Virus record (IMG/VR): IMGVR_UViG_3300028734_000003
Location: 1-64,000 of that record
Reading direction: 5' to 3' (one strand)
DNA length: 64,000 bases
Origin: a virus
The first letter of the stretch is position 1. Each line of letters starts with the position of its first letter. The position numbers and the translations under genes are program-made. A model generated the notes under the pieces. The model had not been told where the DNA came from. It saw nothing but the letters and a program-made list of their open reading frames with translations, and made no database searches. This document shows positions 14,118 through 56,353 of this stretch, piece by piece.

Positions 14118-14395
14118 TCCTTATGTTGTGTAAAATATAAAACAAATGGACTATGTCTGATTTTGTTTAAATAATATAATACCTCATTGAATTTTTTAAG
14201 AGCTACGTCTTGAGCTAGTGCTTTACTAAGCATATCATTACTTCAAGATTTTTCAACCTCATCATCAAAGATAGCTTTCAATAAGAATTTTGGATCTCAT
14301 GCCAATCTAAGTTTCAAGCCTTCTTCTTTGTTTTCTCGAAACATACCACCAGCATCAAATCATTTTTTGAAGTATACCTTTCTATTACTTAGCAT
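14111..14395 (-). CDS. Hypothetical protein
   Basis: 94 residues, starting YFKKGFDAGGMFRENKEEG; contains GDPKFLLKAIFDDEVEK. Its frame ends TGA TAA at 14111-14116, where the TGA overlaps the next gene's ATG. The start overlaps the helicase stop by one base (TAATG). Function unknown. Confidence 0.68.
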
Positions 14396-22582: not shown

Positions 22583-22705
22583 TTATCTAGAGTTCTCATG
22601 GATCTCTTGTATTTCTCAGCATTCTGGACAGGTTGTAGTTGCCTGGATATCCTTTCACTGGATTATATCATACTCGTGTCAGCAAATTTTACATTCATAT
22701 TGCAT
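22583..22705 (-). CDS. Zinc-ribbon microprotein
   Basis: 40 residues: C-K-I-C-G-H-E-Y-D ... T-C-P-E-C-G-E. Two CxxCG knuckles in the FmdB/rubredoxin-like spacing, both glycines written TGA, which supports code 25. Such one-domain zinc ribbons often regulate transcription or bind nucleic acid. Confidence 0.72.
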
Positions 22706-22713
22706 GGGTTTGA

Positions 22714-23019
22714 TTAAGCAAGATAAAATTCTAGCTCAGCTAGTTTGATTTTGTAAAATTCTACTATCCTTGGATCTTTGATTTCTCTTATATATCTTTC
22801 ACACTTTGAAATTGTATTGTGTAGTTGTGGTGGTGACATACTTTCGATCTTCACTCGATCATCTTTTGAATCGCTATACCAATAGCCTACTTTGTTGAAT
22901 TCTCGGTACATCCTGTATCTTTTATTGATTGAATAAAATCTGCTAGGCTGTGTCATATCAAAAGCCATAATCTTTTTTGTTTTGCTGTGAGCGATGAGAA
23001 TTGTAGATCTTCCATTCAA
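22714..23019 (-). CDS. Hypothetical basic protein
   Basis: 101 residues if it starts at TTG 23017-23019, or 84 from the first ATG (22966-22968). Tyr/Arg-rich middle (SRFYSINKRYRMYREFNKVGYWYSD) and a helical end (DPRIVEFYKIKLAELEFYL). No TGA codon. Start choice is uncertain because TAA directly precedes the TTG. Confidence 0.62.
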   Translation of the reverse strand: MNGRSTILIAHSKTKKIMAFDMTQPSRFYSINKRYRMYREFNKVGYWYSDSKDDRVKIESMSPPQLHNTISKCERYIREIKDPRIVEFYKIKLAELEFYLA

Positions 23020-27129: not shown

Positions 27130-27408
27130 TTATTTTATGATTCAGTCCTCCACCATTTTCACTCTAATACATTCTATCATTTTTTGGATAGCGTCTAGAT
27201 TTTCTTTATAGTGTAGTCTGCTATATGCTACGGATATTCACTCCAATCATTTATAAGATATAACCATAGCCCCATCTATTTGTCCGTATATATGCAATTT
27301 TCTTTTGTCGTCCCTATAGTTTTGTCGATCATTCGATGATATTGTATAGTATTTTTTGACAAATTTTATTCACAAGTAGTTTTCTAAAACATTTTTTAGA
27401 CTATCCAT
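27130..27408 (-). CDS. Small hypothetical protein
   Basis: 92 residues; DSLKNVLENYLGIKFVKKYY, KLHIYGQIDGAMVISYKGLEGISVAY, then a helix LDAIQKMIECIRVKM. Mixed alpha/beta. The start overlaps the ArdC gene end by 8 bases, so the two may be coupled. Four TGA glycines. Confidence 0.66.
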
Positions 27409-28237
27409 TCTTAATTTGTTTACCAATTAAAACAAATTGACTTGCTTTTTCTGCCCTACCAATTGCTTGGAATAATTCTGTCTGGCGTCCTTCTTTTTGG
27501 ATTGCCTTTGCTCGCCCTGCTATATATTGAGCGTGGTTATTGAGCTCGAAAGTTTGTCCTGCCTCTTGCATAAGAAAGCAAGCCCCAAATTCTGCTGTCA
27601 ATTCCTCCTTGGAATAGTCTTCTCTGTTGTGTTGTCCTTGTAGACTTCTCTTGAGTCTGTTGTCTGCTCCTGTACTATGAATCATTTGGTGAAAGAAAGA
27701 AGCGTAGTAGTCTTGAGCGTCCTTGAAATCGTGTAATTTTGGCATTGTAATATAGTCATCTCCTACATAATATGCTGGGTCTCCATACTTTTCTAAAATT
27801 TCCTCCCTTGCTAGGTATTCAATAATAACCATTTCTGCGTCATAAATTTCCTCGTGGTTATAGGTGCTTTCGTCTTTGAATTCCGCTCCCTCTTGTTGAT
27901 CGAGATTGAATACTGTATACAATTTTACCATAGGAATTCTCTTTGTATCGTCTAGCTTGTCAGTGAAAAACTGTCGAAAATATACGGTCGTCCCTTTTTC
28001 TCCTTTCTTTACTTGTCCCCCTGCTTCTGCTATTTGTTTGTATGTTGCCCGTCTGTTTTCTTTGTAGCTTTCCTGGTTCATTTTGTAGGATAGAATAATT
28101 TTATTCATACCGTGGTATTTTCTCCCGTCCTTTGCATTTCTTGCCCCTCTAGTATTCCAAAGTTGCTGTCGTTTTCCTGGATTTTCCATAGCTTCTAGCA
28201 CAGATTCTGTGAGCTTTTCGATGATTTCCTTTTTCAT
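27401..28237 (-). CDS. ardC: ArdC-type antirestriction protein with altered zincin motif
   Basis: 278 residues and no TGA codon. The N-terminal ssDNA-binding part (1-95) has WNTRGARN, HGMNKIILS and GGQVKKGEKGTTVYF as in ArdC/DUF1738. Then VKLYTVFNLDQQEG, ITMPKLHDFKDAQDYYASFFHQMIHSTGADNRLKR and YSKEELTAEFGACFL follow the zincin-like C-terminal domain; HAQYIAGRAKAIQKEG closes it. Where family members have HExxH, here it is H183-Q-M-I-H187, so the catalytic Glu is replaced by Gln. Protects entering phage DNA from restriction in known relatives; peptidase activity is doubtful here. GGN-only glycine use suggests recent transfer or codon selection. Confidence 0.83.
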   Translation of the reverse strand: MKKEIIEKLTESVLEAMENPGKRQQLWNTRGARNAKDGRKYHGMNKIILSYKMNQESYKENRRATYKQIAEAGGQVKKGEKGTTVYFRQFFTDKLDDTKRIPMVKLYTVFNLDQQEGAEFKDESTYNHEEIYDAEMVIIEYLAREEILEKYGDPAYYVGDDYITMPKLHDFKDAQDYYASFFHQMIHSTGADNRLKRSLQGQHNREDYSKEELTAEFGACFLMQEAGQTFELNNHAQYIAGRAKAIQKEGRQTELFQAIGRAEKASQFVLIGKQIKNG

Positions 28238-28441: not shown

Positions 28442-28783
28442 TTATGCTCCAGTCCAGGTTTTTCAACACTCCTTGCATTTTTCGTTTCCAGTGTGTGAAA
28501 AGTCATCTGAGAAGCCTTGAGCTATGTATTCTTTTTGGTCCTCGTCCCAGGTGAATTCGTCATCAATAAGAGTTTCCACCCGTTTGGATTCGCTCCCACA
28601 ATGTTGACACTGGTGAGACTGGAATTTTTCACGGATAGCAATATCCTCCCTAGTTATTCCCCTATAATTTGTAGAGATTGCCCCCATTTTAATTATCCCG
28701 TCGATTGCCTCCTCCTTGTTAATTGCTCGAATTTTGTCCTCCTTTGATTCTCCAATAGAAAACATAAACAATTTCTTTTCCAT
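28442..28783 (-). CDS. Zinc-ribbon protein of the DUF-type phage small proteins
   Basis: 113 residues. KKLFMFSIGESKEDKIRAINKEEAID forms a small alpha/beta head; C-Q-H-C-G (about 59-63) and C-K-E-C-G (about 104-108) provide a four-Cys zinc site, the second Gly being TGA at the position where a standard-code reading would truncate the protein. The end KTWTGA follows the zinc ribbon. Probable nucleic-acid or protein-binding accessory factor. Confidence 0.7.
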
Positions 28784-28994: not shown

Positions 28995-29069
28995 TTAAGA
29001 AAGGAATAAAATTTGGACGCCCCCAAAGATAGCAAGGGCGATTCCAAAAAGGTATAAATGTAGAATCAT
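28995..29069 (-). CDS. Membrane microprotein
   Basis: 24 residues, almost entirely one hydrophobic helix (LYLFGIALAIFGGVQILFL). Starts with ATG, ends with TAA, and fits exactly in the space between two genes. It may be real, since other membrane microproteins occur in this operon, but a sequence this short can arise by chance. Confidence 0.4.
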   Translation of the reverse strand: MILHLYLFGIALAIFGGVQILFLS

Positions 29070-29094
29070 TTGTCTAATTATCTATAGATAAATA

Positions 29095-29397
29095 CTACTC
29101 GAAAGATATTTTTGGATTGTCAATTTCCACCAGTATAGATTCCTGATTGAATAAAGTTTTCAAAGTCGCTATGAATTCTCAATGCTCCTTGTCCGTGACT
29201 GTTGAGATAATGAGTGAATTTTCCTTGACAATTTCCCCGCTATCGTGGACGTAAAAGCCTTGCCCCTCCATAATTGTACCCCCTCCAAAATGTTTTCCCA
29301 CCAGATTCATAGTGATTTTGAAAGCCTCCACGATTCCAAAGGCTTGCAACTTTGTGTCCTTATCACAAAGTCAAAGATAGAATGTTTTCTTTTTCAT
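29095..29397 (-). CDS. First gene of the leftward operon, hypothetical
   Basis: 100 residues: KKKTFYLGLCDKDTKLQAFG, AFKITMNLVGKHFGGGTIMEGQGFYVHD, NSLIISTVTDKEHGEF. The beta-rich pattern with G-G-G-T ... G-x-G-Y-x-x-H is like small uncharacterised plasmid/phage proteins. Two TGA glycines. Its upstream region holds an inverted repeat and AT-rich promoter-like sequence, so it should be expressed first. Confidence 0.68.
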
Positions 29398-29426
29398 AAG
29401 TTTTCCGTTTACAATTTAAAAGTATC

Positions 29427-29460
29427 ACGGATTAAAAATTCTCCCCAGATTCTAATCCGT
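29427..29460 (-). promoter_or_regulatory. Inverted repeat in the leader of the leftward operon
   Basis: ACGGATTA (29427-29434) and TAATCCGT (29453-29460) form a perfect 8-base inverted repeat about 30 bases before the first ATG. A TATAAT box (minus strand, around 29472-29478) lies just upstream. It could be an operator or an attenuator hairpin. Confidence 0.5.
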
Positions 29461-29479
29461 TATATTTTTAAATTATAAT

Positions 29480-29765
29480 TTGCCTCGATAGTTTACGGTG
29501 AAAGTCTTATCACCTAGCCTGGAGAGTTTACCTCCTATATCATTTGCGTTGACCTCCTCGCTGTCTAGTCAAATTCCTTACAGAGTATCGACTAAGTTTT
29601 ATGGAGCGTCTTTGCCTTTTCCTACTATCTAAATGTAAAATATCAGTTGTACTCAAGACGGTCCGTCTGTTATTGTACTATATCCAGTCCCTTGCGTTTG
29701 TGCTAGATATATTTTAACGAGTTGCTTATGCTTATGCTTTGCGTCTTGTATGTATAGTATACGGA
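29480..29765. other. GC-richer untranslated island of unknown function
   Basis: This stretch is clearly less AT-rich than its surroundings and shows many short pairings (GGTGA/TCACC, GGAG/CTCC, TAGTC/GACTA). On the minus strand one frame reads protein-like (…GKGKDAP, NLVDTL, GLDSEEVNANDIGGKLSRLG…) but is cut by TAG and two TAA codons and has no start. It could be a structured RNA, a replication origin or a gene remnant. Confidence 0.4.
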
Positions 29766-30709
29766 TACACTTTTTTTAATGAGCTAGTGTTGCTCGCCGT
29801 TGCTATGTTTACTTGACGCTTTGAATTATACGAAAAAAAAATCAAAAAGCAATAGCGGTGATAACTGGATACTTGCAAAAATATACTACAAAATGATAGA
29901 AAATGATGGGCTGATATACCAGTTGAGAACTGCATTTGAATACTTTTTTTATAAAATAGAAAAAAATCTATACTTTTTTTATAGTTTTTTTGTAGTGATT
30001 TAAAAGATTATAGTTGTTGACTGGTAAAACTCAGACAAAAAAAATATAAAAATCTTTTTGATTTTGTATATTTTTGATTGAATCCATATAAAAAGCGTTG
30101 TTTTTTTGTAGTGAATATGAAAAAAAATATTTTACTACAAAAAGAAAACAGACTATATCTATATAAATATATTGTTTATATATATATATCTTTTTTGTTT
30201 CTCTACTACATTAAAAACTTATAGACTATATATAAGAAAATGGAAAAATAAAAAAAATAATTTTATAAGGACATAAGAAAACAAAAATGAAAAAGTTTTG
30301 AAAACGCTAGTTTTGTCAATTCAAGTATAGTGTTTTTATGTAGTAAAACGAAAAATTGCAGAAGTCAATAGTACCAATACTATACACAGTATACTTATAT
30401 GAGTCAATATATTTTATGTTTTATTTTTCGTACTTTGTCAATATGTTTTGTAGTGAATTGAATAAGTCAAGGGGGTAATGACCCATTGATGATAGGAGTA
30501 GGGGGGTTAACCCCTCCCTCTAAGTTTTCGCTTTTTATCTAATGGGGAAACTCTGTCAAAAAACAACTTGACTATTTTCCATCCCCTCCCAATAATAATT
30601 GATGGTTTTTTCTCATTAACGAAAAAATCACTTGATTTCCATTAACGAAAAACTATACTCAAAATATAGGAGTTTACTCCCTATCATTTATATTATTATT
30701 TTGAAACAC
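29766..30709. promoter_or_regulatory. AT-rich divergent control region with repeats
   Basis: About 0.9 kb without a convincing gene between the two main transcription units. It carries TTTTGTAGTGA three times (29987, 30104, 30446) plus several inverted TACTACAAAA copies, long A/T tracts (29940-30300), the palindrome GGGGTTAACCCC at 30503-30514 and a 13-base direct repeat CATTAACGAAAAA at 30614 and 30640. Such a mix of iteron-like sites and AT-rich DNA suits an origin and/or regulatory switch. Confidence 0.55.
30632..30659 (+). promoter_or_regulatory. Promoter-like sequence of the rightward operon
   Basis: TTGATT (30632-30637), 16 bases, TATACT (30654-30659). The second CATTAACGAAAAA repeat lies in the spacer, so a protein bound there would block it. 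First gene starts at 30710. Confidence 0.5.
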
Positions 30710-31815: not shown

Positions 31816-32184
31816 ATGGGAACTAGAGAAGACAGATTCCAGGCAATGAGTCACTCAATCAAAATGAGTATTTATTGACTTACACAATTTAAACAGAAAC
31901 CGCTTTTAGAATTTATTGAACCTATCTTTGATTTCTGGGATGCTAAACATCGAGAGAAGATCGAACAGAAATTCTCATGGATTATCAACGATGTTTATTC
32001 TAGACATAAGAGAGTTCTCAATAAACAATTTTCCGAATTCAAAGAAATTCGACTAGAGATAGGACTTCCAGTATCCGAAGAAGAAACAAAGAAACTTCTT
32101 AAGAAACTAAAGGATGTCCCAGAAGCAAGAGATATCATTCCAAAAGAAACTTTAGATTCTATGAAACAACCACTATGAAAATAG
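31816..32184 (+). CDS. Helical protein, small-terminase position; amber codon in 5' part
   Basis: 122 residues from ATG 31816. Helix-rich (MSHSIKMSIYGLTQFKQKPLL, DAKHREKIEQKFSWIINDVYS, EEETKKLLKKLKDVP). The same frame is protein-like further upstream, back to an ATG at 31723-31725 that overlaps the previous stop, but TAG at 31756-31758 (codon 12) interrupts it. So either translation starts late, or the amber is a lesion or is suppressed. The end runs through a TGA overlapping the GroES start. Small terminase is a guess from position. Confidence 0.6.
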
Positions 32185-32525
32185 AAGATACATCTATATT
32201 GGAAATAGAAAATATACAGGTACTAGGTATAAACGTACTTGTTCAAAGAATTGATGAGGCAGAAACTACTGCGTCTGGTATATTTTTAGGGACATCTGCC
32301 GAAAAAGACAATAAAAATTTCCTTGCAAATGATACATTTTTGGCAAAAGTTTTGAAAGTAGGTGAGGCTGTACAAATGGTTAAGCCAGGTGATCTCGTAT
32401 ATTGCAATAAATTCTTTGTTAAGTGAGTCAATGTTAAAAATATCGCTGGACTTAAAAATTCAGAGTATGGACTTCTCGAAGAACGTGGAGGAATCTATGC
32501 AAGAATATCTTCTTTATTTATATAA
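32175..32525 (+). CDS. groS: GroES-like co-chaperonin
   Basis: 116 residues. Pattern of the chaperonin-10 barrel: VLGINVLVQRIDEAETTASGIFLG (strand, mobile-loop region TTASGIFLG), FLAKVLKVGEAVQMVKPGDLVYCNKFF, and EYGLLEERGGIYARI. About 20 residues longer than host GroES at the N-terminus. The frame crosses one TGA (after FFVK). It works with the GroEL encoded 2.8 kb downstream, probably to fold phage capsid protein. Confidence 0.78.
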
Positions 32526-33245: not shown

Positions 33246-35327
33246 ATGGCTGTAGATTTTACAAACTTCTCGAATGTTACAGATAAGAACTGAATATTGA
33301 GAGTGCTGGGGAACGCCATCAGCACCTCTTTTTCTATTAACTGAGATATACTTGATAACCCATTTATCTTATCCTCCACGCAATGGGATAAAATAAATCC
33401 GTTGATAAGAGATGACTTCTCGTCATCACTCATAAATAGGAAAAATATTGTCTATGCAGACAATCCAAAGATCAAAAGTCATAAGTTTTTCCTCCTAGAT
33501 GGAATAAAACTTATCGAATATATCGACAGAGAAAGCACTTGAGTAGTGGAATGAGAACAACCACTAGATGAAGATACACTGAAAGAGTCTATATTCTACC
33601 TAGCAAAATCAAAGATACTCTCAGATCTCCAGATAACCATCCTCAGAGAACTATCTAAGCAGTTCTATATCTACAAAGATGGGTCGTTGGTTCTAAGAGA
33701 GCAGGAACAACAGGCATTATTCAATGCAGATGATCCAGAACACGAAAAAATCAGATCCATATTAGATCTCCCATTTGAAATCTACTTCAACGCCATCCAA
33801 AATTTTCCGAAAGAATTAGTAGACGATGTTGTTATAGCCGAAGAACATAAATTTTTCAAGAACGATAGACTCCCAGTGAAGATTATTCCTCAGTTAGTCC
33901 GTGAGACTATGGTGAATGACGATGGTGGGACTATCAAGCTCTCCTATTGGCAGATGTATAAGGCCTATCATTCACTCAGAAAGAGATTTGTTTGGAATGC
34001 TTGTCCTAGACAATCGTGAAAAACGTTTGATGCGGTTCGTGACTGTTATCAAAGACTTCTTTCCAAAGACTATTACCGTATTATTTATATCTGTGAGACG
34101 GAAGCCGCCTTTAAGCAGCCACGGGATTACTTTGAGTCTCTATTGAAGAAGGCTGCCGATTACGGAATCATAGAACTCAACAGAAGTAACTTCACCATCA
34201 GGTGTCCTTTTGGTTGATCGACTGGAAATACGCTTACTTTCGTGTCTTCATTCTCTAAACTTGGGCCTAGATCTTTGAAGGGTAACTACTTTGTCTTCGA
34301 TGAAGGTGGAAAGATTAAGACATCTACATGGCTCGATGCTTTCCCAATTATCAATAATAATAATGCGGGCGTTTTGGTAAACTCTACTATCTTCCGAGAA
34401 ATGAAGAAGCTCGATTCGGAGCGGTTCTATAATGAACTCCTTGCTATTGAGATGTGATTTAAGCAGGATGAGGACGGTACCGATGAATGGATGGCCCTCA
34501 GAGTGAATATTGATCAGATTGAATGGCTCACACCAAAGCAAAAGAAAACAACCAAAGATACTTTGCGCCCATATCCAAATAGATTTTATTGCGAACTCTA
34601 TTCTCAACTACCAAAAGCAGACTCAACAGTTGTCCCTGAAGGATTCTTCATCATGTCTGACGAAGATAAAATTCAAAAGGACGAGTTCTTACTCCTTGGT
34701 CGGGATCTTGCAAAGAGGGTTGATACCGCAGGTATGCTTATGCTTTCTCAAAAGGACGGTATTGCATTTCGAGAAAGTAGACTCAGAGGATATACATATA
34801 CCCAACAAATAAATATCGTCAAAGAACTCAAACAGATGTATCCAGGACTTAAGGTGTGTGCCGATATATCAAATGAAGAGCAGGTTATTGAAAATAATCC
34901 AGGACTTATCGACTATCCTATCAAGTTCACCTCCGCTACCTCATGATTCAAGAAGGAATTCAGAGAATGAGTCACAATCTACAGTGTTGGTAAGGAGGTA
35001 TTGGTCAATAACTTCGTAAGTATGGCCGAAGAGGGTCAAGTAAAAGCGCTTTCTAAGCTGGAAATGTTTAGAATGGAAGCAGAAAATTACATAGGGAAAA
35101 GAAATGGTAGGGGTTGAATGAGTTATGAAGCCCAGGCTGGTACTGATGATCTTATGTCAGCTATGCTTTGTATTGCCTGGATATTCAAAACAACATATCT
35201 TGAGCCGCTTCGTATTTGGGAACAGCAAAGAGAGGCAGAAAAAAGGGCTCTCGAAAATGTTGAAAGAGATGACTATGGAAGAACTATAAAAAGAAAGAAG
35301 AATTGATATTACTGAAATATTTATTAA
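33246..35327 (+). CDS. terL: Terminase large subunit
   Basis: 693 residues. ATPase: Walker A NACPRQSGKTFDAV around residue 258, whose invariant Gly is TGA 34017-34019; Walker B NYFVFDEGGK with D352/E353. Nuclease: GRDLAKRVD (D487), VCADISNEEQ (D540) and AGTDDLMSAML (D634/D635) supply the acidic residues of an RNase H-like fold. The first ~230 residues form an extra N-terminal domain. It cuts and pumps DNA into the prohead at the portal encoded 1.7 kb downstream. A few TGA glycines near the C-terminus (NGYYGNIY). Confidence 0.93.
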
Positions 35328-35354
35328 CATTTTATACTGTAAGTTGTCGAAAAA

Positions 35355-36917
35355 ATGTCAAAAACTGTATTACTATGAGATGACGCTCGTAAAAAATTAT
35401 TTGAAGGAATGAAAATAGTTTCTACTGCCGTTATGTCTTCTATGGGTCCTTGCGGAAGGAATGCCGTCCTTGGAAGATTCGATAGATCCCCTGTTGTCAC
35501 AAATGATGGGGTTACAATCGCCAGAGAGATAAGTTTGCAAGATCCTGTAGAAAATATTTGAGCATCCATAATTAAGGAAGCCGCAGAGAAGACAAATAAG
35601 GAGGTAGGTGACTGAACTACTACCACCACTTGTCTTACCTACGCAATTGCAAAACATGGCCTATCGGAACTGCAAAACGGAACAAATCCGTTCGTATTAA
35701 GCAAAAATCTACATGAAATTGGGGATAGTATCGTTGAAAATATAAGAAAATACACAAAAACAATTAAACATACATCCCCAGAGGTAAAAGATATTGCCAC
35801 CATATCTGCACAGGACGAAGAAATTTGAGAAACTATAGCAAAATGTATCAAAGAAATATGACCAGATGGACAAATTTCTGTTGAGATTTCAAAGGAAATA
35901 GGTATCAAAGAGGAATTGAAAAAATGATACGTCATTGATGCTGGTTTGGTATCACCAATATTTATGCTCGATGAAGAAAATCTTCAATCAGACCTAAGTG
36001 ATGTAACAATATTGGTTGGTAAATGAGAGCTATCCGATGCATGAGGGGTGTTAATTTGAGTATTAGAGGAAATGCATTATGAGGGTAGAAAAAATTTACT
36101 AATTATGGCAGATGAGGTATCGTGAGGTGCTCTAGATGCTATAATAAAAAATAATAAAAGCTGAATGTTTAATATAATTGTAACATGATTACCATCTACA
36201 TGACAAAACTCTGAAGATATCTTAGAGGATGTTTATACTGTGTGTTGTTGGTGAGAAACAATTTTAGAAAGAGGATTCTCTGGCCAGATATGACGTGCAG
36301 GAAGGGTAGTATCTTGAAAAGATTCAACAGTTATTGTGGATTGATATTGAGAAGATGATTGAATAAATGAACGCATATCTATGTTAAAAAAGAAAAACTT
36401 AAAAGAAAAAAATGAGTATCGAAGAGAAAAGGTAGAAGAGAGAATCTCAAGACTTTCTTCTGGTGTTGCTATTATTTATGTTGGATGCCAAACAGAAATG
36501 GAGGCAGTCAATAAAAAATATAAAATCGAAGATGCAATATGTGCTACGAAATCAGCAATAAAGAACTGAATTGTTATTGGTGGTGGATTTGCCCTTGTTA
36601 GAGCCGCAACAGAGGTACCTGTTCCAGATTGATTTGGTGTTGCATGGAGAATACTTATAAACGCAATAAAAGAGCCAGCAAAAACCATAATATATAATGC
36701 GTGACGAGATGCAGAAAAGATTATACATCCGTGAGATATAAAATCAGAATTAGTTTTCAATTCCAAAACATGAGTATACACACCATGGGATGAATATAAA
36801 ATAATTGATCCGGCAAAGGTTGTTGAGTGCGCTGTCCAGAACGCAATATCAGCTGCTTGTATGTTTCTCACTACTGACGTTGTTGTATTTGAAACAGAAG
36901 ATATAATAAGTCAATAG
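35355..36917 (+). CDS. groL: Phage GroEL-type chaperonin
   Basis: 520 residues, near full length for Gro[21 protein letters not shown] and [13 protein letters not shown] open the equatorial domain; [15 protein letters not shown] gives the nucleotide Asp at 86 (E. coli position 87) with its Gly written TGA; later [52 protein letters not shown]. The apical domain is diverged. Over 25 TGA glycines. With the GroES at 32175 it forms a complete phage chaperonin; inserted between terminase and portal. C-terminal GGM tail is absent. Confidence 0.92.
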
Positions 36918-37013: not shown

Positions 37014-39074
37014 ATGAAAATAGTAACTGACTTTATTGCAAACGATAAGGGGTATACTAGAGTTTCACAGATTTTTGATTATTATCAAAAAAACGTTTGG
37101 CCTAAATGGATAAAAGACTACCAGTCTTATGCTGGAGATATGACTCCTAGAAAAGCCTACATAGATACTACTTGGCAATCAAATATTTCGTCTGGAATTA
37201 CAAAGAAAACGATCAAAACGTTTTTCGCACATATCTACGATAATCTAATTAAGTTCTATGTTTCTGGAGCATCTGAATCAGAGCAAGACAAGGAACAGGC
37301 AACACTTTGTGAGGAATATCTCATGTGGACATACTCAGTTTCAAAGACAAAAAGATTTTTGCATATGCAAATCCTTGATGCTTTGATTATCGGTGAGGGA
37401 TATGGTAAAGTTGGATTCAAAACCGTAAACAAGACTAAGAAATATGTTGTCCCTAAGTATGATCTTAAGGGAAATATCATTTCATGAGAAGTAAAAACTA
37501 AAAAAATATTTAAACAGAATGGTTCTTATGAATATATTTCTCCATTTGACTTACTTATCGACCCAGCAGCCAAAGATCCTTATGCTGCTCCAGTAAAAAT
37601 CAAAAGAGAATTGGTACCAGAATCCAAATTGACTGAAAAATATGGAATGTTTTTCCAATTACCAAAAGCAAAATTAGAAAAAGCAATGAATGACCCAAAA
37701 ATGTTTGCCACTAAAGACTGGACATACCAAAGAAACCAAATTCTTGTACAGGATTGACTTACGGATATCAACAGTTTCAATGGATCATACTCATTTGAAA
37801 AAAACAAGTATGTTGAAATGGTAGAGGTTTGGATTGATGATGGAATGGATGGTAGATTAGAACTTTGGATAAACGGATATTGTGTATATAACGCAATAAA
37901 TCCATATCCAATCGAAGAAGACCCATTTACATATCTATATTTCTCACTAGAGGGTGGTACAATTAGAGGTACTGGACTTGCTGGGCTACTTCGTCCATAT
38001 GACGACATGGCTTCTGCGTTTTTGAACGCATATATTGACGACCTAAAAATAAAAGCAAAACCTATTCTCCTTAGAGTTGCTGGAAAATCTCAAATAGTTT
38101 CCGGGAATAACGAGGTAGAATGGTACCCTGGACAAATTATAACCGTTGAAGATGTAAATCAACTTCAGCCATTAAATATCGGTGGTGCAAATGTGCAAGT
38201 TATCGACTTGGTAAACTTTATGGAAAATGCGGCCTTTATGGCAGCCGGTGTTAACGAAATAGTTATGGGATCTCCTATCTCAGGAGGTAAAGTACCTAGA
38301 GTTGCTGGTGATGTTGTCAATAGAGTACAAGGATTTAAGGTAAGGCTTCTCTCTTTGTTCGATTCTTTGAACGATGTTATGAGCAAGACTGGTAAATTCT
38401 GGATGGAACTTGGAAACATCTACATGCAGAAGGAAACGGTTATGAAAATCTTCAATGATGAAACTAAACTTTGGACTTGGAGAAAGATAAATGCAGAAAA
38501 TCTTGATGGTGAGTTCGATATCATCTTCGATACCGAAGCGCTCAAGACAGCATACAAAGAAATTAGAATTGCTCAGCTTACTCAGTTCCTATCCGTCATT
38601 GGAAATAATGCAATTGACCCATCTACTGGTATGCCTGTGATAAATTTCGCAGATCTTATCAGACAATTGGCTCAATATCTTGATTTGAAAGCTAATTTCA
38701 TCTATACGGATAAAGAGGCAGTAGCTAAAATTGAAAAAGCAGAACTACAAAAAATAAAGACCCAAGAAAAAGTACAAGCAAAAACAATGGAAGCAAAGGC
38801 TAGATTGGATGCTAAAGCGGCACCAGCACAACCTGCTCAACCAGAACAGTCTGCCGCAGGATCCGTAGATATTGCACAAGTTGTTAAAAATCTTGCTGCT
38901 CAATGAGGTGGACAACCATCACCAGAACAGCCAGTTCCAGAAGAACAAGCGCCAGCTCCAGAAAATATTGCAGATGTTGTTGCACAAGTAGCTGGAGATC
39001 AAAACCAACAAGCCGTTCAACCAGAAAATATACAAAAAACAGCCGTGAACGATATTTTAACCCCTCAAGACTAG
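37014..39074 (+). CDS. Portal protein (podovirus-like)
   Basis: 686 residues. LLRPYDDMASAFLNAYIDDLKIKAKPILLRV, NNEVEWYPGQIITVED and IDLVNFMENAAFMAAGVNEIVMGSPISGGKV fit the wing/stem/clip order of P22-like and related podovirus portals. Residues 560-640 form a Lys/Ala/Gln-rich helix; the last ~45 residues are Pro/Gln/Glu-rich and follow one TGA. It would make the 12-subunit ring for DNA entry and tail attachment. TGA use is low (about four codons). Confidence 0.85.
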
Positions 39075-39075
39075 G

Positions 39076-39351
39076 ATGGAATTCTTAAAAAAACTTGTAA
39101 ATGATTTCTTGGTTAAGAATGGTAAAGCCCATTTAATAACTTTATCTTTTGAGAAGAAGGATGTTTCATTTTGACAGTTTAATCTCGCTCATTATGGCGT
39201 TCTTTTGACTTATCTTAATAACAATCTTATTGATTGCTATGAGTCAGGGGACGTTGTATCAGCTGCTAGGTATAGGTCTAATATATTAGAGATCACCAAA
39301 GAGAAAATAGCCCTCGAAGAGAGAATTAGAAAGGAACAAAACCCATCATAA
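39076..39351 (+). CDS. Small head protein, hypothetical
   Basis: 91 residues starting one base after the portal stop. Helical; FLKKLVNDFLVKNGKAHLITLSFEKKD, YLNNNLIDCYESGDVVSAARYR and a charged C-terminal helix. One TGA glycine. May be a head or assembly accessory; no family recognised. Confidence 0.65.
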
Positions 39352-39375
39352 TTTTATTTATTATCTTTTTTGCTT

Positions 39376-40149
39376 ATGGCTGATTCAAACATTTCATCTA
39401 AAGACACACCAAACTATAACCTTTTTGATAAAGGTAATTACGATGAAGCCAGAAAAGCTTCTCAAGAAAAATTCAAGGGAACTGAAGTAAAAAATCCAAC
39501 TGAAGATTTTGCTGGTAAATATGGGAACACATTGGTAGGAACAAAACTTGTAAAAGCTATTGATGAATTTTCTAAACAGAATGGAATTGGCGGTGCAGAT
39601 AAACAAACTCTAGTAACCGACTATATTACAAATATTAGAAAGCCAGTAATGACTGGAGATCAAGTACAATCTGCATATAAAGAGGATTTGAAATGAAATG
39701 CTCTAGTAAATTATGGTCCTTCTATGCGTGAATGATACAAAAAATTAGAACCATATGGAATAAAGGTGGCTGATTGACAAAAGGAAGAGGTACCAGAACC
39801 AGAAAAAAAGGAAACTAAAAAATCATCAGCAATAAAAGCTGTATCATGAGCCCCAAAAAAAGAGGAAAATAAATGAACACAAGAAAATAAAGCAACACTA
39901 TCCGTAGCTAAATCAAACGATCTACATATAATGCCAACTATTTGACAAATAAATTGAATATGATCTGCTTGAGATATTTGAAAAGGTAAATTAGAAAAAC
40001 CAAAGTTTGATTTGAATAATATATGAAAGATGGCTCCAGACAACAAAGATTTAGTAAGTTTGGCCGAGACTATTCTTGACCGTGCAGCCAAAGAAAAGTA
40101 CGCTAAGCAGCGTAAACCTGGTGCATGAGACGTTGCCACAATAAAATAG
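39376..40149 (+). CDS. Head-associated hypothetical protein
   Basis: 257 residues from ATG 39376 (an upstream TTG is less likely). N-terminal 105 residues are folded (NLFDKGNYDEARKASQEKF, VKAIDEFSKQNGIG); then a TGA-rich, Lys/Glu/Pro linker; a Gly-rich segment IGQINGIGSAGDIGKGK in which most Gly are TGA; and a basic helical end. Between portal and scaffold, so probably a minor head protein or ejection protein. Confidence 0.62.
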
Positions 40150-40161
40150 TCAAAAAACATA

Positions 40162-40190
40162 TTGATATTCATCTATATATCTATATATAA
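40162..40190 (+). promoter_or_regulatory. Promoter-like element before the scaffold/capsid genes, copy 1
   Basis: TTGATA (40162-40167), 17 bases (TTCATCTATATATCTAT), ATATAA (40185-40190). The same 25-base block recurs at 63946-63974. A second TATAAT follows at 40214-40219, ten bases before ATG 40229, which also has AAGGGG as a ribosome-binding site. Confidence 0.6.
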
Positions 40191-40228
40191 ATGATAATTG
40201 TAAGGTTTTAGTATATAATTGTAAGGGG

Positions 40229-41143
40229 ATGCCACAACCACAAGTATTAGATCGTGACGCTAATCACGCCGCTTTCAACCATGCTCTAGGTAAAGGTTAT
40301 GATGAAATGCAATCATCAAAATCAGAACTAGATATCAAAAATTTTGCTCCTGAAGCAGCGGATACTGCTGAAGAACCAGCAAAACCAGAAGAACCTACAG
40401 CAGAAGCTCCAGCTCCGGAAGAAGCTCCGGAAGAAGAACCAGCTACTACTGAAGAAAAACCTGTTGAAGGTAGTGAACCAGAACCACCAGCACATGACGA
40501 GTCTAAGGCTGAACCAGAAACACCTGGCGAAGAAGATAAGACTGCTGTTGAGGAAGGGGAAGCTCTATTGGAAACAGTAAGAACGTTATTGGGTATAGTT
40601 GATGAGGCCCCGCAGCCTAAAGAAGTTGAAGATCAAAAGGTAGTTGTTGAAGAAGCCGCAAAAGCATCTGAGGCAGCGCCAGAAGATGTTGAACTTACAG
40701 CTAAACTACAAGGCGAAATTGATAAACTTAATGAACTCGTTCTCCAAAAAGAGATTTTGAGCGAACAAGATGCAAAGGAAAAAGAAAGATACAAGGCAGA
40801 ATTGGAAAATGCTAATCAGGAAATAGATAAACTAAATTCTGATACAGCTACTCTAAAGGAATCCCATGATCTTTTGAACTCTGATGAGAGAGTTAAATCT
40901 CTTGCAACATTCATGAGCAAATTTAAAGCTGGTGATGAAACCGTCAAAGACGATATCAAATCAATTCTTGATGAAATGGTCCAAGAAGTTTATGGAGTAA
41001 GTATTGATTCAATGATGAAAGACATGGCTGAGCAACAAACTGCGACAGCAGCATCCCCATCATCGTCTACATATAGCTCTGAAAAAGACAAAGCTCCTGG
41101 TGGAAGACAATTGTTAGACATCAGACAGTATATGAAGGATTAG
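40229..41143 (+). CDS. Capsid scaffolding protein
   Basis: 304 residues, very acidic: Glu/Pro/Ala-rich residues 40-160 (repeated A-E-E-P-A type pieces), a coiled coil at 165-225 (LQGEIDKLNELVLQKE, EIDKLNSDTATLKES) and a C-terminal ordered segment ending DIRQYMKD. Size, charge, coiled coil and position directly before the major capsid gene are standard for scaffolds. Not a single TGA codon; all Gly are GGN. It has one of the few good Shine-Dalgarno sequences. Confidence 0.82.
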   Translation: MPQPQVLDRDANHAAFNHALGKGYDEMQSSKSELDIKNFAPEAADTAEEPAKPEEPTAEAPAPEEAPEEEPATTEEKPVEGSEPEPPAHDESKAEPETPGEEDKTAVEEGEALLETVRTLLGIVDEAPQPKEVEDQKVVVEEAAKASEAAPEDVELTAKLQGEIDKLNELVLQKEILSEQDAKEKERYKAELENANQEIDKLNSDTATLKESHDLLNSDERVKSLATFMSKFKAGDETVKDDIKSILDEMVQEVYGVSIDSMMKDMAEQQTATAASPSSSTYSSEKDKAPGGRQLLDIRQYMKD

Positions 41144-41171
41144 CTTTTTTTATACATAACCTATAACCAAA

Positions 41172-42518
41172 ATGTCTTTTAGCGTAACTAATGATTCTCC
41201 TACGGCTGTGTTGAAAACACTCCCACAAGTAGGTGCGTACTCTTTCGAGGCGTGGAAAAATTACAACAAAAAGCTCGGATCTTGGCTCTTTGGAGACCAA
41301 TTGTTCGGAACCTCTACAGCAAAAAATGTTAGCTTCAAAAATTTGAAGATTGACGCTGTAACAACTAAGGATGGATATGTAGTTGAATGGTCTACTATCG
41401 CAATGAAGAGAGCATCAACAACAACAAGTACAGCAGGTGCTGGAACTGTTAAAACATTGGCAGCTACACAAGGTTTCTCAAAGGGTGATAAGATCATCTT
41501 CGAGGCTATTGATGGAACTGAAACATATGCTTTCGTAGCATCTGTAGATTCAACTACACAAATCACTTTGGCAGCTTCAATTACAACTGCCGCAACTGAT
41601 CTTGTTAAGAGAGTTGCTTCTGCTAAGAGAGTTGGAGATGTTGTTGATAGAACAGATTACGATCCTACTAGAAACAAGACATCAAACAACTTCCAAACAT
41701 TCCAAGCAAAATTCTCAGTTACTGACCAAACACTTAATTCTCATATGGATCTTTACTTCAGAGGTGGGCAACCAAATCCAGACGAAGCAAAATCTACTAA
41801 AGAAATTATGCTGGAAGGAATCAATAACTACCTCCAAATGAAAACAGCTCAAAAACTCGGAAACGAAATTTTCGGAGATATCGCAGCAACATTCTTCAAA
41901 GGAAAGAAAGATACTTACACAGATGGTTCTTCTAAAGTAAGATACTATGCTGGAGGATTGGCTGAAGTAGTTGATACAGTTACTATTTCTGCTTCTGATG
42001 AAGGTGATGCAATTCTAGAACAAATCTACAACGCTACATACGATGTATACAACTACTCAGCTGCATACGGAAATGAAAAGGTTGTTATGATTGGAAACTC
42101 AGCATTTGTTAAGAAATTTGGAACATTGAGACAAAACAATGTACAAATCCAATTGTCATCTGCTCCAACTGAATTCGGATTCGGTCTCCAAAAGATCAAC
42201 TTCCCACAATTCGACTACTTGATGCTTGGTTTTGAACCATCTCTTGACGAATGTGACATCAACGCACCAGTAGCATACGTTATTCCTTTGGATCTTATCG
42301 GAGCGTACAGAAAAATGTACCACGGTTTGAACGAAAACTTCGCTCCTGAAATGGGTAGCCCAGATATCCTTATCAAGAAATCAGTTACTGATGAAGATAC
42401 AATGGATACAACTACTCTTCTCATGATCTACGATCTTACTTTCATCTTCGGAGGAAACGATTCAGCTACTAACTTTGGTGCTGGAAAAGGATTGTACAAG
42501 AAAATCATCTTGTCTTAG
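41172..42518 (+). CDS. Major capsid protein
   Basis: 448 residues. N-terminal helical arm (VLKTLPQVGAYSFEAWKNY), a beta-rich inserted domain at 70-160 (Thr/Ala strands), FQTFQAKFSVTDQTLNSHMDLYF, then GINNYLQMKTAQKLGNEIFG spine-like helix and a P-domain/A-domain end (VMIGNSAFVKKFG, DYLMLGFEPSLDECD). Fold type HK97 is inferred from size, position after scaffold and helix/strand order. About 40 glycines, none written TGA, indicating codon selection for high expression. The leader ends AACCAAAATG. Confidence 0.82.
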   Translation: MSFSVTNDSPTAVLKTLPQVGAYSFEAWKNYNKKLGSWLFGDQLFGTSTAKNVSFKNLKIDAVTTKDGYVVEWSTIAMKRASTTTSTAGAGTVKTLAATQGFSKGDKIIFEAIDGTETYAFVASVDSTTQITLAASITTAATDLVKRVASAKRVGDVVDRTDYDPTRNKTSNNFQTFQAKFSVTDQTLNSHMDLYFRGGQPNPDEAKSTKEIMLEGINNYLQMKTAQKLGNEIFGDIAATFFKGKKDTYTDGSSKVRYYAGGLAEVVDTVTISASDEGDAILEQIYNATYDVYNYSAAYGNEKVVMIGNSAFVKKFGTLRQNNVQIQLSSAPTEFGFGLQKINFPQFDYLMLGFEPSLDECDINAPVAYVIPLDLIGAYRKMYHGLNENFAPEMGSPDILIKKSVTDEDTMDTTTLLMIYDLTFIFGGNDSATNFGAGKGLYKKIILS

Positions 42519-42571
42519 TATATTTGGAGGGGTAAAACCCTCCTCCTTTAATTTTTTTACCAAAATTCGCT

Positions 42572-42901
42572 ATGCTTATTGCAAAAAGAAAAACGCTAGC
42601 AATGCTAGCTCCAGCAGATACAGCCGAAGCAACATTGCTTACGATTGGTGCTGGTAAACAAGTAGAACTTAATTTGTACATTAACAATGTAACAGGTACT
42701 GCTGCAAACGTTACTGTAAAATTGGTTTCTGGTGGGGTAACAGTTTCTTTGAGAACTGCTGTTTCTTTGGCAGCTAATGCTACAAATGATGCGGCTCCAA
42801 TTAAACTATTCCTTTCTGCTGGTGATGCTATTAAGGTAACTTCAGGGACAGCTAATGCTATCGCTTTTGTTGCTAGTGGTATTGAATACCTTGCTAAATA
42901 G
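42572..42901 (+). CDS. Capsid decoration protein candidate
   Basis: 109 residues, all beta: alternating Val/Thr/Ala strands (KQVELNLYINNVTGTAANVTVKLVSGGVTVSL, then GDAIKVTSGTANAIAFVASG). Immunoglobulin-like or jelly-roll sandwich of the kind found as head decoration or fibre-head proteins. No TGA. It is similar in pattern to the 118-residue protein at 58994-59350. Confidence 0.68.
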   Translation: MLIAKRKTLAMLAPADTAEATLLTIGAGKQVELNLYINNVTGTAANVTVKLVSGGVTVSLRTAVSLAANATNDAAPIKLFLSAGDAIKVTSGTANAIAFVASGIEYLAK

Positions 42902-46828: not shown

Positions 46829-49800
46829 ATGTGATTGATTGATTTCGTAAAATGAGCTTGGGATGAAGCAAAAAATGTAGTGTCCGATATCAAAGACTTT
46901 CTCGAAGTACCTATTAGAGAAGTCCAAAATTCATGAATCACATTACCTATAGGGGACTGAATACAAATAATGAAAGGGAATGAACAATGAGTATCTGATG
47001 TAATCAATACTCAAAATATTCCTGTTGCCCAGGTGAACACAGATACAATCAAAAATATGCAAAACATCTTTTCCGATAACAAAGTAACGGCGCAAGAAAA
47101 ACAATATATTTCTACTCTCCCCGAGGCATATCAAAATATATTCAAAGCATCAAAAACACTGGACCAGTTAAAAAGCTATGTTTATAACCCAGAATTTCTA
47201 AAGGCTGATCCAGCTGCTGCAACAAAAATGAAGGAAGATTATAATTCTAACCTGCAAAATCTTAATTACAACCTAAAGAGAATTGAGGAATTAGATCCTG
47301 GACACGCACAAAACCAAGAATTAGATAAACAATATTTCCAAACTGAATTTCAAAAAGCCACTCCCAAGATGAAAGATCTTGAGGATATTTTTGGTAAAAA
47401 TACAGATGTGGCAAACGCCTACAATAAAACTGTATACAACTCTATCTCGGATGTGAGCGATTTAATAACCCAAGCTAGAGATAATAAATTACAAGATGAT
47501 CCTTATTTTGTTTCAAAAATAGAATCTCTTAAAAAAATGAAGGACCAGCTTCAAAATGTCATGTATTTGAAAACTAAAAATAACGCTAGCCAGATAAAAG
47601 ACTGGAATGACGCATTTGATTTGATATCTAATGACGATTCTGCAAAAATGTTGGCACAAAACATTACAGATACCGAAGAAGATATTAGACAAGATCTTAT
47701 GAAAAAATCTGTAGCCAAAACATATGAAGAAAATAAGCCTATCCTTGGTACATATAAATGAGCAGAATACTTGTTGAGTTTCGTTACTAGGGGTTTGGAT
47801 GAAGTTATACAACAAGTTGCCCCAGTTAAAGCGACAGACCTATCGGACCTGGAATATCTCTCACAAAATAACGGTGTAATTAAAAATGCTATTGGTAAAA
47901 CAGCAAATCGAGCAATCAGAAACGGTTGAGAGCTAGCTCAGTTGTTTGTTCCTGTAGAATGATTAGTAAAATGAGCACAGATTGGAATAAAAGGTGTCAT
48001 GGATATTGGTAAGGCTGTAAAATTTGTTGATGCTGCTGCTGATGCTAGCAAGGTTATCAACTCATTAAACAATATGGATAAGGCATTTAACCTGGTAAAA
48101 GGTACTGTTGGTATTGATTCCATGTTCGATTATAATCTATCTGCTGGAATGTCAGATGCAAATACATCTACAAATATTCTTTTCAATGTAATTTGAGAAG
48201 GACTCCCATTGATAAAATGAGCAATAAAAGACTACAAAGAAGCTGGTATTACAAAACTAAAGGCAGCCGAATTTGACCAGGCATATAAAAATGCGTCATT
48301 CGATGTTGCTATTGATGGAGCTGATGCTTCAAAAACAGTCAAAGTAAATATGTTTGATCTTTTGGGTGCTAAGTGAGATAGTGTAAATGACATCATTAGG
48401 GCGGCTGGAGACTGAGCAAAAATAGATACAGAAACATTTAGAGTATCCTTGAATAATGCTTTAGATAAATTTACCACTGGTTTAGTTGCTTGAGAAAAAG
48501 CTGTAGAGCCAGAAGCTAGAGCATTTATTAGAAGTGTCTTTGAGGGTGTTGCTAATACTCTCACAGATATGGGAGAAAGAACTAAATTACTTAATGGTAT
48601 AGAGGGAAGAATAGCCACTAGAGATGGTCTTATTAGCGCATTATATGAATCTAAAAAAGTATTCAACGATGTTGCTAAATCAGAGGCAGGAATACTCACA
48701 GATATGGTCAAATACTCACAAGGCTCATTTAACGAATTAGGATTTGTCCCTGTAGAGAATATGGAAAAATTAGTAAATCATAAGCAAAATTTTGTGAAGG
48801 CTGTTGCTGATCACTTCACTGGTAAAAATATATCAGAAGGAACAAGAACCGTGGTTGATAAGATACTTTCAAATGTAAATGAAACTGGGAAAGTTTCTGA
48901 CTCTCATATTATGGGGCTTATAAGGGCTTTCAATGAATGATTTGCCGGCTGAACAGCTGAAGAATATATGAAAAAATTACAAGAGTTTTCTCAAAACACT
49001 CTTAATTATGTACCAGAGGGGTTGAAATCTATAGAGTCTATCAAAAAGATAGGCGCTCTTGCTGAAACAAAATTTCTCGATAATATAAAAGCTGCAAAAA
49101 TAAATGTAAAATTTGAAAAACTTGGTACTGGTATAGGTTGAACATTTAAGGATGGATCGGCTATAATTTCTTTATATAAGGGATTCTATAAAAATCCAGA
49201 CGATTTTGTTATTGGATTTGTTCATGAGCTTACCCACGGTCTCATCAACAAAGAATCCAAATTATACACAGAGATGGCAGTTAAATATTCCGAGGGTGTA
49301 GCAGAATTGAACACAAAATTCGCTTCTCTATACGATTGATTTGATATCAAAAATTTGGATGTTAAAAAACTCCAGGAGAAATGATTTTCTCAAGACGAAA
49401 TTGACTATCTAAAAACCTATGGATATAGATTCAAAAATACTGATGAATTTATTGCATATAATGTTTCTGAATCTCTAGTTGGTAAAGCTCCTAGTGAGGC
49501 TTTTGAAATATTGAAAACTAAAGTTAAGGCTGTTGCCGATGTCGCTTTTGATTGAAAGGTTACAGATGATATGTTTAAGGTAGCTGGAGATAAACTCATG
49601 AATGGTAGATTCAAGGCGTCAAGCGCAAAGCCGTCCGTTGCTAGGGATATTGATAACTATATCTATTCTGAATCTGGTAGAAGATTATTTTCTTCAGATA
49701 TAAACGACATTGCTAAGGCAAATGAAAATATTGGTAGCATAGCATCTTTTCAAAAGTTGATAAACGATACTGACGCTGAGACATTGGCTGCTAATATGAA

Positions 49801-52800
49801 AAATAAAGACGTACAAATTTATAAAATGCTTGTTGAAGCGTCTAAATCAGATGATCCATTGGTAGAAGAATTTATTAAACAAAGTGCTCTCAATGGTATG
49901 ATTTCTGGGAACAGATGATATGAGGCAATGGTATCTTGAGGACTATTTGAAGTATTTGGTGATTTCCAAACCTATGTGAAATTATCAGACTCTCTAGAAA
50001 GTCCAGAAAAAATGATTGAGTATTTTGAAAAAGGGCAGGGGCAAATATCAAGTATCGTAAATAAAATTGATTTCATGTTAAATAACATCCCATACAAAGG
50101 AGACAAGCAAATTAAGATACAAAAGACACTTACAGACTTAAGAGCTATGTCTCAATATTATGCATATGTTGATGTTATTGCTAAGATCGGGAATAGAGAA
50201 GGATTCGATGGAATCAAGCGTTTTGTTATGTCTAAAATAGAGGACCTAACTACATTTGGTGGAGAAAAAATATCAAATGTTTATGGAATGAAAAGGGGTC
50301 AGAGAGCTACTGAAGTTCTTTCAAGAGGAATGAGCGATATTGTTAAGGATCTACAATCAGAAATTGGGACAAAATGAGTGGAACTTCATGACTATTTATT
50401 GAGAAGTCTTACAAAAGCAGAAATCCTTAATCCAAAAATAGAATCAATTTGATTTGGTGTTTGGAAAGAGGTTGTGAATGCTCTAGGATTCAAGGTAGTC
50501 AATAAAGCTACCGTCCCTCAAGATGTATTTAATATGCTTGCTGACGCAAACTATATAAAATCAGAAGAATCCGCTGGTACACTTTATGGGCTTTGAAAAC
50601 TATTTGGATTCGATGATACAAAACTAAAAGGGAATTATTCTGCAAGACAATCTGCAATTGCAAAAATACTATGATGAGCAGAATTTAAAGACGCTATATC
50701 AAGTACAGCAAAATGAGCGGAGCCTAAAGTATCCGATGTATTGAACTTCTTAAATCTAAAGGATTTTGAGCTTATAGATGCAAACGTTTGAACAATTTTT
50801 GATACTATCTACGATAAATTTGACTTCCCTATCGCTGATAAAATAGCTAATAGAGTTTCAGATATTCTATCAACAGAAAGATCAATTGACAGCGTAGTAA
50901 AATGAAGAGAGGTAGCAAAAGAATTGGCACAGAAAAACTATGATAACATAGCAAAAAATATTTGATTTTTGGAAAATAGTCTTATGTATCCAATGAAAAA
51001 GGATATATGAGAATTGGTTGATCTCGCTAGACAAGACGTATCTTTCTCGCCAGACGGAACAATTGGCTCTGTTGTTGCACAAGATGGGCTTACTTATAAG
51101 CAAATCTGAGATAAATTTGTAGCAAATGTGAATAATTCACAAGCAATATCTGACCCAGATTCATTCAAGTGAGTTGTTTCTTCTAGTCTCGTATACGAAA
51201 ACGAAGCAAAAAATATTTATGCTTTGGCTGGTACCACTAGATGAGTTGCCGGATCTAAAAAGGTTGTCGAATTTATGAACTGAGTTATTTGGTCAAATAA
51301 ACTAAAAACTAGCTGAGTCACAAAACTTTGAGTATCTATGGAAGATCTGGTGAAACTAGATGAATTTCCTAAAGATTCTCAGGAGCTTGCAGCTTACGCA
51401 GAAAAGTATAATGAGCTATACAACGGAGCTATTGCAAATTTTGGAATCAATGATGACGTTACAAAATACATAGGAATTAAAAAATCAATGATCAACCAAT
51501 ATTCTGCACTTAGAAAAACAACAGATGATGTACAATATTTCAAAGCGTTGTGAGATATTTCATCAAGAACGTATGATATGGTCCAAGCCAATATAGATAC
51601 ATTAAATAAATTGGTATGAAATAAAAAATTAAGTGATGCGGAAAAGATTTCAAAGGCAAATGAAATGATTTCAAAAATTCGCAACAACTTTACGAAATGA
51701 ATTGAATGAAAGGACGTTAAAAAAATCATAAAAGACAAAAATAATTACATCATACCATGAAGTAATCAACCACGATGATTTGCACCTCTCAGCGTAAATT
51801 CTGTCGCAGCCATAAGAACATTCTCCAAGGCTTTGGAGTCTTCTGCTAGAGATATGTCTATGGAAGTTCTCTCAAATAACGTGAAATATAGTGCAAGGCT
51901 CTCAGAGGGTAATCGTATGTTGACTGAGCTTAGAAATTTTGCATCAAATTGAATCGCTAGTAAATCATTTTCATTCGACAATATAGATAATTTATCAAAA
52001 TATTGAGATAAACCATTTGCATTTAATGTGCAAGAAATGATTTGGAAAAAATTCAATACAGCAAAAGAAAATTTCTATAGAATTGAGAAAACTGGAGTCC
52101 CTGTTGTATCTGTAAATGCTGTAGAATCTATTAAAGAATCTGTTGCGTCTGTTATTGCTGGTAGATATTGAGTTGATAAAAGTGTTGTAAAGGATTGAAT
52201 TTCAGTCGATTATGTGAAACCAACCGTGGCCCAAGTATCCTATATTGATCCAGATTGAGTATTGAGAAGCCACTATATTGATACAAACCTACCAGAGGAA
52301 ATTAAAAATTATTACCAATTTGCACTTACTAGAGATGAAATTTTGGAAGGTAAACAAGTATCGTTTAGAATCGGTGGCGCTGGTGAAGATATGGCATCAC
52401 ACACAGCAACGATCGACGGATCTAAATATAACGGTCTTTTGGACCAACAGTTGTGAGATTCTATAGATATGTTGGAATGAGATAAATTACTTCCTGTTTG
52501 GGAACAGGCTGCTAAAAAATCTATGTGATCTGAGTATGTAAAATGAATTATGGAAAGTACATACGTTCCAAAAATATTCAGTTTCTTAATGGAAAATAAA
52601 GCAGTTCTAAGAGAGTCTGCGTACGATACATATAAGATTGTTTCTGAGTATGATAGGGTTGTTACAAACTTTGCAGATAAGGCTTCGGAACTACTATGAC
52701 ATATTGAGTCAGAGGCACCAGAACTTAAAAAATTTGGTGAAGTATATAATGCAAATATTGAATATGTCAAAGCACTTGTTCTTGGGAAAAGAATTATTCC

Positions 52801-55800: not shown

Positions 55801-56353
55801 AATGCTCTACGGAAATCTAGATAGAATGAAGCTCCTATTGAATTCAAATTACGCTCCAGGAATGCAGGATGAAATGAATAAATTGGCTGATATAATTCGA
55901 GACACAAACGAGAAGCTCCAATGTACTCCAGAATTATTGAATGCGCTTACTCATGCAGGATGAAGCGGAACCGGTAAAAAGGTCCAGAAACCAAAGAGTA
56001 TAGAGCTACAAAAAGATGTTATAGCTAAGGTAAATGATCTAGCTGACGCAATGCCAACTAAATTGAAATCATTCGCTTTGAGCTTGAAATCACAAAGGAT
56101 AAACGCTACACTCAAGGCACTATCTTTACCAACATTAAAGCCAGAAAAGAATGACACCTACACAGCTAGCAAACTTACCCCGATTGGATGATGAGACATT
56201 AAAACAGCCTCAATCAAAACAGCTGAGTCAAAGTGAGGAAAGTCAACTCCAAAAATCAAAACTGCAAAGCCAGGAAAAACCTGACCAGTGAGTAATAGTG
56301 GGATCAAAAGACCTACCCCAATTAAAATCCAAAGAGTTAAGAAAGCCGAGTAA
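46829..56353 (+). CDS. Giant 3174-residue internal virion/ejection-type protein with HELTH metallopeptidase motif
   Basis: One continuous frame of 9525 bases, uninterrupted by TAA or TAG, with over 120 TGA glycines. Mostly alpha-helical with many Lys/Asp/Asn. At residues 795-803 the text is IGFVHELTHG (H799, E800, H803), a zincin HExxH site, with E-x-x-A-Y-N-V-S-E-S-L-V some 80 residues on as a candidate third ligand. Other parts resemble polyvalent proteins that phages inject or pack with DNA: for example RDENFV-like helices and a late segment KRFALDQMDAIKRDDKIFKAIAGG. C-terminus is Lys/Thr/Pro-rich. It occupies the pilot/tape position between ejection proteins and fibre genes; transglycosylase or peptidase action during genome entry is inferred. 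Confidence 0.75.

Follow-up and report, generated by a model that had tools for sequence, protein, structure and literature searches.

A phage genome very probably written in the Absconditabacteria genetic code, with UGA read as glycine and CGA and CGG as tryptophan

In the present study, a phage genome was analysed that, with high probability, is written in the full Absconditabacteria code, in which UGA would specify glycine, CGA and CGG would specify tryptophan, and UAA and UAG would be the stops. The window, i.e. the whole stretch of DNA analysed, comprises 64,000 of the 64,158 bases of the IMG/VR record IMGVR_UViG_3300028734_000003. Both ends of this record carry an identical stretch of 75 bases, and an open frame spans the join when the two printed ends are read together, suggesting that the assembly is most likely complete and circular, i.e. 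a phage genome of approximately 64,083 bp, nearly all of which is covered by the window. A simple gene caller provided 75 genes. That TAA or TAG ends almost all genes, as remarked in an earlier sequence-only reading of this DNA, holds for all genes called, but by construction of the calls, in which only these two codons were allowed as ends. No close relatives were found among the IMG/VR records searched with TerL, capsid, GroEL, portal, giant ORF or Sak protein as the query, a set from which near-identical records of this virus may have been withheld.

UGA as a glycine codon

Several lines of evidence concern the meaning of UGA. First, many genes of this phage are open only when TGA is a sense codon, and in-frame TGA is dense. 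With the standard stops, only 3 stop-free runs reach 300 codons or more; treating TGA as sense raises this number to 18, compared with 4 and 5 in the controls in which TAG and TAA, respectively, are read through. Second, substitution of residues at the TGA positions favoured glycine in two proteins. In GroEL (35355-36917, plus strand, 24 in-frame TGA), where each of the 20 residues was tried, glycine reached 386.8 bits against phrog_5725, followed by glutamine with 355.3 bits, and tryptophan reached 329.9 bits. In the SF2 DNA helicase (14395-15768, minus strand), where 25 of the 31 glycines are encoded by TGA, ten residues were tried, and glycine, alanine and tryptophan scored 172.9, 142 and 120 bits, respectively. 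Third, the residues opposite TGA were tabulated in alignments of four genes (49 columns), and local codon inference gave +43.8 bits for glycine and -40.1 bits for the next residue, although this inference is noisy on its own, as the standard residue of some ordinary codons (TGC and CAG, for example) was missed by as much as 16 bits. With UGA as glycine, the total glycine content is 7.2% of residues.

The same meaning is suggested by the positions of TGA within conserved motifs, as the sequence-only reading had proposed. In the terminase large subunit, TerL (33246-35327, plus strand, 12 in-frame TGA), which matches phrog_2 and Pfam Terminase_6N, the Walker A glycine is encoded by TGA at 34017-34019 (CPRQS-TGA-KTF); homologues of TerL were found neither in phage records nor in the PDB. 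In GroEL, the glycine of the GDGTTT loop is encoded by TGA at 35613-35615 (GD-TGA-TTT), and glycine occupies this position in all aligned homologues. The earlier reading correctly located both codons, but its numbering relative to D87 of E. coli GroEL is off by one: the loop glycine is residue 87 here, and the E. coli aspartate pairs with the Asp that precedes it. The reported occurrence of TGA after CxxC was likewise confirmed in a small zinc-ribbon-like gene (22583-22804, minus strand; CKIC-TGA and CPEC-TGA) and a second small gene with a zinc-ribbon motif (28442-28783, minus strand; CKEC-TGA-KTW), and TGA directly follows 5 of the 12 CxxC motifs among all genes. Two further sites, which the earlier reading had not seen, are located in the SF2 helicase, where TGA encodes the glycines of Walker A (15418-15420; ARE-G-WGKT) and motif VI (14575-14577; QLI-G-RILR).

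Under code 4, UGA would encode tryptophan; alternatively, UGA could be a stop with programmed readthrough. No point supporting either possibility was found. Tryptophan falls below glycine by 57 bits in GroEL and 53 bits in the helicase, and would increase to 3.8% of residues if UGA were read in this manner. The 75 genes contain 563 in-frame UGA codons, catalytic loops included, together with 748 GGN and 137 TGG codons. Both possibilities are counted as already refuted by the GroEL and helicase alignments, and their probability is negligible. In other words, as judged from the sequence comparisons, glycine is the best meaning of UGA, and tryptophan and stop are excluded. The word "proven", which the earlier reading applied to this recoding on the basis of catalytic motifs, is too strong for computational support, and its description as genome-wide applies to the meaning of the codon, with the use of the codon being uneven, as described below.

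The GroES co-chaperonin gene (32175-32525, plus strand) and the GroEL gene flank the terminase gene, one on each side, and even the most similar GroEL in phage records shares only approximately 36% identity with that of the present phage. When IMG/VR was searched with a GroEL pattern requiring TGA as the loop-glycine codon, nine matches were returned, none of which was GroEL.

CGA and CGG as probable tryptophan codons

The sequence-only reading had proposed a recoding of the table 25 type, which captures UGA as glycine but is incomplete, as it missed CGA and CGG, both of which probably encode tryptophan as well. The most informative gene encodes the ArdC anti-restriction protein (27401-28237, minus strand). 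In 80 viral ArdC homologues, five columns have a tryptophan majority, and the codons at these columns are CGA, TGG, CGG, CGA and CGA in the present genome. The four recoded codons (CGA 28169-28171, CGG 28049-28051, CGA 27974-27976 and CGA 27512-27514) are the only CGA or CGG codons in the gene, and the chance of all four landing in those five columns is approximately 2e-8. Arginine was observed at these sites in 0 of the 80 homologues. Against phrog_7245, ArdC scored 205.1 bits with CGA and CGG as tryptophan and 177.2 bits with arginine (+28), and the other residues gave 186.4 (Tyr), 185.2 (Phe), 181 (Leu), 176.6 (Gln) and 175.9 bits (Lys). When the gain was split, CGA as tryptophan alone contributed +21.0 bits and CGG alone +6.9 bits.

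Two unrelated genes agree with tryptophan at CGA. In a DUF3127 protein (13136-13444, minus strand), which is annotated as ssDNA-binding in relatives, CGA at 13187-13189 lies at a conserved tryptophan position and faces tryptophan in 3 of 3 phage homologues; the score was 41.4 bits with tryptophan, the best of the seven residues tried, compared with 34.4 bits (+7). In a probable tail protein (1384-4140, plus strand), the CBM_4_9 domain scored 27.8 bits with CGA as tryptophan compared with 14.7 bits (+13), and the curated cut-off was passed only with tryptophan. The codons at 2011-2013 and 2155-2157 of this gene face tryptophan in the CBM of PDB 1gui, and a third CGA (2053-2055) falls within the same domain. 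Only three genes are informative for CGA as tryptophan, and most CGA and CGG sites are without usable homologues. For CGG, the result derives mainly from the single ArdC site, where tryptophan is present in 72 of the 80 homologues; elsewhere, small gains were observed in TerL and the exonuclease, and a loss in the small endolysin. Taken together, these alignments suggest that CGA is very likely, and CGG likely, a tryptophan codon.

Two other explanations were weighed. In plain table 25, only UGA would be recoded, CGA and CGG would encode arginine, the host might belong to Gracilibacteria, and the sites in ArdC, DUF3127 and the CBM would be coincidental arginine substitutions. This possibility is consistent with small losses observed when CGA and CGG are read as tryptophan, amounting to 4.0 bits in the amidase, 2.6 bits in the small endolysin, 3.5 and 3.7 bits in two weaker exonuclease families, 2.8 bits with Pfam Terminase_6N and 2.3 bits with ResIII, and with the finding that CGA and CGG are no rarer than the four-fold codon box predicts in this genome. 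However, all four ArdC codons fall on tryptophan columns devoid of arginine, and the two unrelated genes agree. Moreover, CGT and CGC act as arginine in the same proteins in which CGA and CGG do not: in TerL, GroEL, the helicase and the exonuclease, reading CGT and CGC as tryptophan costs 2.4 to 6.5 bits, compared with shifts of -1.7 to +2.8 bits for CGA and CGG. Plain table 25 is therefore considered unlikely.

Alternatively, the genome might be of mixed origin, with ArdC and a few other genes captured from Absconditabacteria with CGA as tryptophan, and CGA in the remaining genes encoding arginine or being read ambiguously. The codon usage of ArdC is indeed atypical (TGA for 0 of 20 glycines, with high GAC and GGG), and the other CGA sites are mostly uninformative, with a few mildly in favour of arginine. 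Nevertheless, the CBM evidence is located in a TGA-rich tail gene typical of this phage (59 of 84 glycines), the DUF3127 evidence belongs to the replication gene block, and one host would decode every CGA alike, rendering a mixed origin very unlikely. Two further approaches did not distinguish the meanings: a sequence-context classifier for arginine versus tryptophan had no power (AUC 0.52), and a paralogue comparison was uninformative, involving only two related genes that share the same CGA. These tail genes (57752-58981 and 60096-63656) have in common an N-terminal domain of 193 residues with 42% identity, in which the same TGA-CGA pair is kept. With the double recoding of UGA and CGA/CGG, the tryptophan content of the genome increases from 0.75% with TGG alone to 1.17%.

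Uneven use of the recoded codons and the head genes

The share of glycine codons that are TGA varies among genes (chi-square 245, 50 d.f., P 1.6e-27), ranging from approximately 0.8 in the helicase and endolysin and 0.7 in the tail protein to nearly none in the head block (37014-42901, plus strand). This block includes the genes for the portal (37014-39074) and for a putative scaffold (40229-41143), capsid (41172-42518) and decoration protein (42572-42901), all on the plus strand, with the latter three named by position only. The head genes use TGA for 3 of 97 glycines, compared with 560 of 1214 elsewhere (P 1.5e-20), and CGA or CGG for 0 of 14 tryptophans, compared with 76 of 199 elsewhere (P 0.0025), although both P values are flattering, as the group was picked after the data had been seen. 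In the putative capsid gene alone, TGA is used for 0 of 35 glycines (P 5e-9); the AlphaFold model of this protein was unusable (pLDDT 31). The head genes avoid both kinds of recoded codon, and ArdC, devoid of TGA, uses CGA or CGG for most of its tryptophans.

Herein, we propose that the head genes shun recoded codons owing to a cost in speed or accuracy in abundant proteins. In this proposal, UGA, CGA and CGG would all be decoded by host tRNAs, selection would keep all three from the most abundant virion proteins, and recoded codons would be slow or error-prone even in the native host; we give the proposal as a whole an even chance of being correct. The main rival, which is possible but less probable, is that the block was recently captured from a standard-code phage and has yet to gain the recoded codons. 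The strength of the depletion is in line with such a capture. However, the head genes also carry further codon marks expected of high expression: AGA accounts for 0.91 of arginine codons, TTA is reduced (0.08 versus 0.24), as is ATA (0.17 versus 0.38), and more C-ending codons are used for Phe, Tyr and Asn. In addition, a gene inside the block (39376-40149) is not depleted and uses TGA normally (12 of 25 glycines), and the portal has only remote homologues, which belong to podovirus-like phages (Erwinia, Acinetobacter, Rhizobium) with sizes of 75-80 kb and are approximately 20-23% identical.

Several other features of the genome were observed. A single ORF of 3,174 aa (46829-56353) contains 91 in-frame TGA codons and had no match in PHROGs, Pfam or the PDB; its product is possibly a tape-measure or giant virion protein. 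The region 29000-30700, between two divergent gene blocks, is AT-rich, has almost no called genes and is crowded with imperfect repeats, both direct and inverted; it might be an origin or control region. Two endolysins of the lysis type, one with Amidase_2 and 3D domains and very rich in TGA (23 of 29 glycines) and the other short and peptidase-M15-like, are encoded at 10928-11737 and 6609-7001, one at each site and listed in that order.

Host and comparison with known systems

No tRNA or tmRNA gene was detected in the record by ARAGORN or Rfam, and no release factor or aminoacyl-tRNA synthetase was observed among the scanned proteins, which form part of the gene set. A phage without a tRNA gene should depend on the tRNAs and decoding of its host. 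UGA would presumably be decoded by a host tRNA-Gly(UCA), and CGA and CGG by host tRNAs with UCG and CCG anticodons charged with tryptophan; the phage would thus follow the host code, with no code switch during infection. A pattern search for tRNA-Gly(UCA) over all genomes was rejected, as it returned eight irrelevant loci and the pattern also fits tRNA-Glu(UUC).

In Absconditabacteria, UGA is predicted to encode glycine and both CGA and CGG tryptophan, and in some Gracilibacteria only CGG is predicted to encode tryptophan (Shulgina and Eddy 2021, PMC8629427). Since the combination found here has been reported only for Absconditabacteria, we infer from the code that the host is probably a member of this group. 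The sequence-only reading had named either Absconditabacteria or Gracilibacteria, and the recoding of both CGA and CGG favours the former over the latter. The present genome has the same three codon meanings as those bacterial genomes, and its frequencies per 10,000 codons (CGA 35, CGG 7) are close to the bacterial range (CGA <37, CGG <7; PMC8629427).

In Absconditabacteria and Gracilibacteria, phages and prophages that use code 25 are known (Liu et al. 2023, PMC10746230). The present phage resembles them in having dense in-frame TGA read as glycine and genes intact only under code 25, but CGA and CGG, apparently recoded here, are unmentioned in that report. The phage RSA-ATP1 of Absconditicoccaceae (PMC13059738) is likewise a tailed-phage genome with UGA as glycine. 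However, four tRNA genes, one of them for tRNA-Gly(UCA), are present in RSA-ATP1 (39 kb) and none in the present phage (64 kb); the carriage of GroEL and GroES also sets the latter apart, and CGA and CGG are unmentioned in that report as well. Two phages with AGG as methionine match recoded Bacilli (PMC8629427) and, as here, follow a sense-codon reassignment of the host without carrying the tRNA, although the codon and host phylum differ and no stop-codon change is described for them. In self-recoding phages, whose hosts use the standard code, recoded stops are believed to be placed in late genes so that the expression of these genes is delayed (described in PMC10746230). In contrast, a suppressor tRNA was absent here according to ARAGORN and Rfam, and the recoded stops are not concentrated in late structural and lysis genes, being frequent in the helicase and scarce in the head genes, although the endolysin is rich in them. 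No report of a phage with CGA and CGG as tryptophan was found in the searchable literature, with preprints and most subscription papers lying outside the search. Thus, code-25 phages and AGG-methionine phages are known, and a phage combining UGA as glycine with CGA and CGG as tryptophan is apparently new.

These results might have several consequences. First, a sense-codon reassignment that has so far been a computational prediction would gain support from a genome other than those of the bacteria themselves. Second, phages of Absconditabacteria and Gracilibacteria could be separated by their code without spacers. Third, standard annotation would mistranslate the proteins of this phage, and translation of the phages of this host with table 25 would introduce a wrong residue at each CGA and CGG. 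Finally, the comparison of the head genes with the rest may allow the cost of recoded codons to be tested within a single genome.
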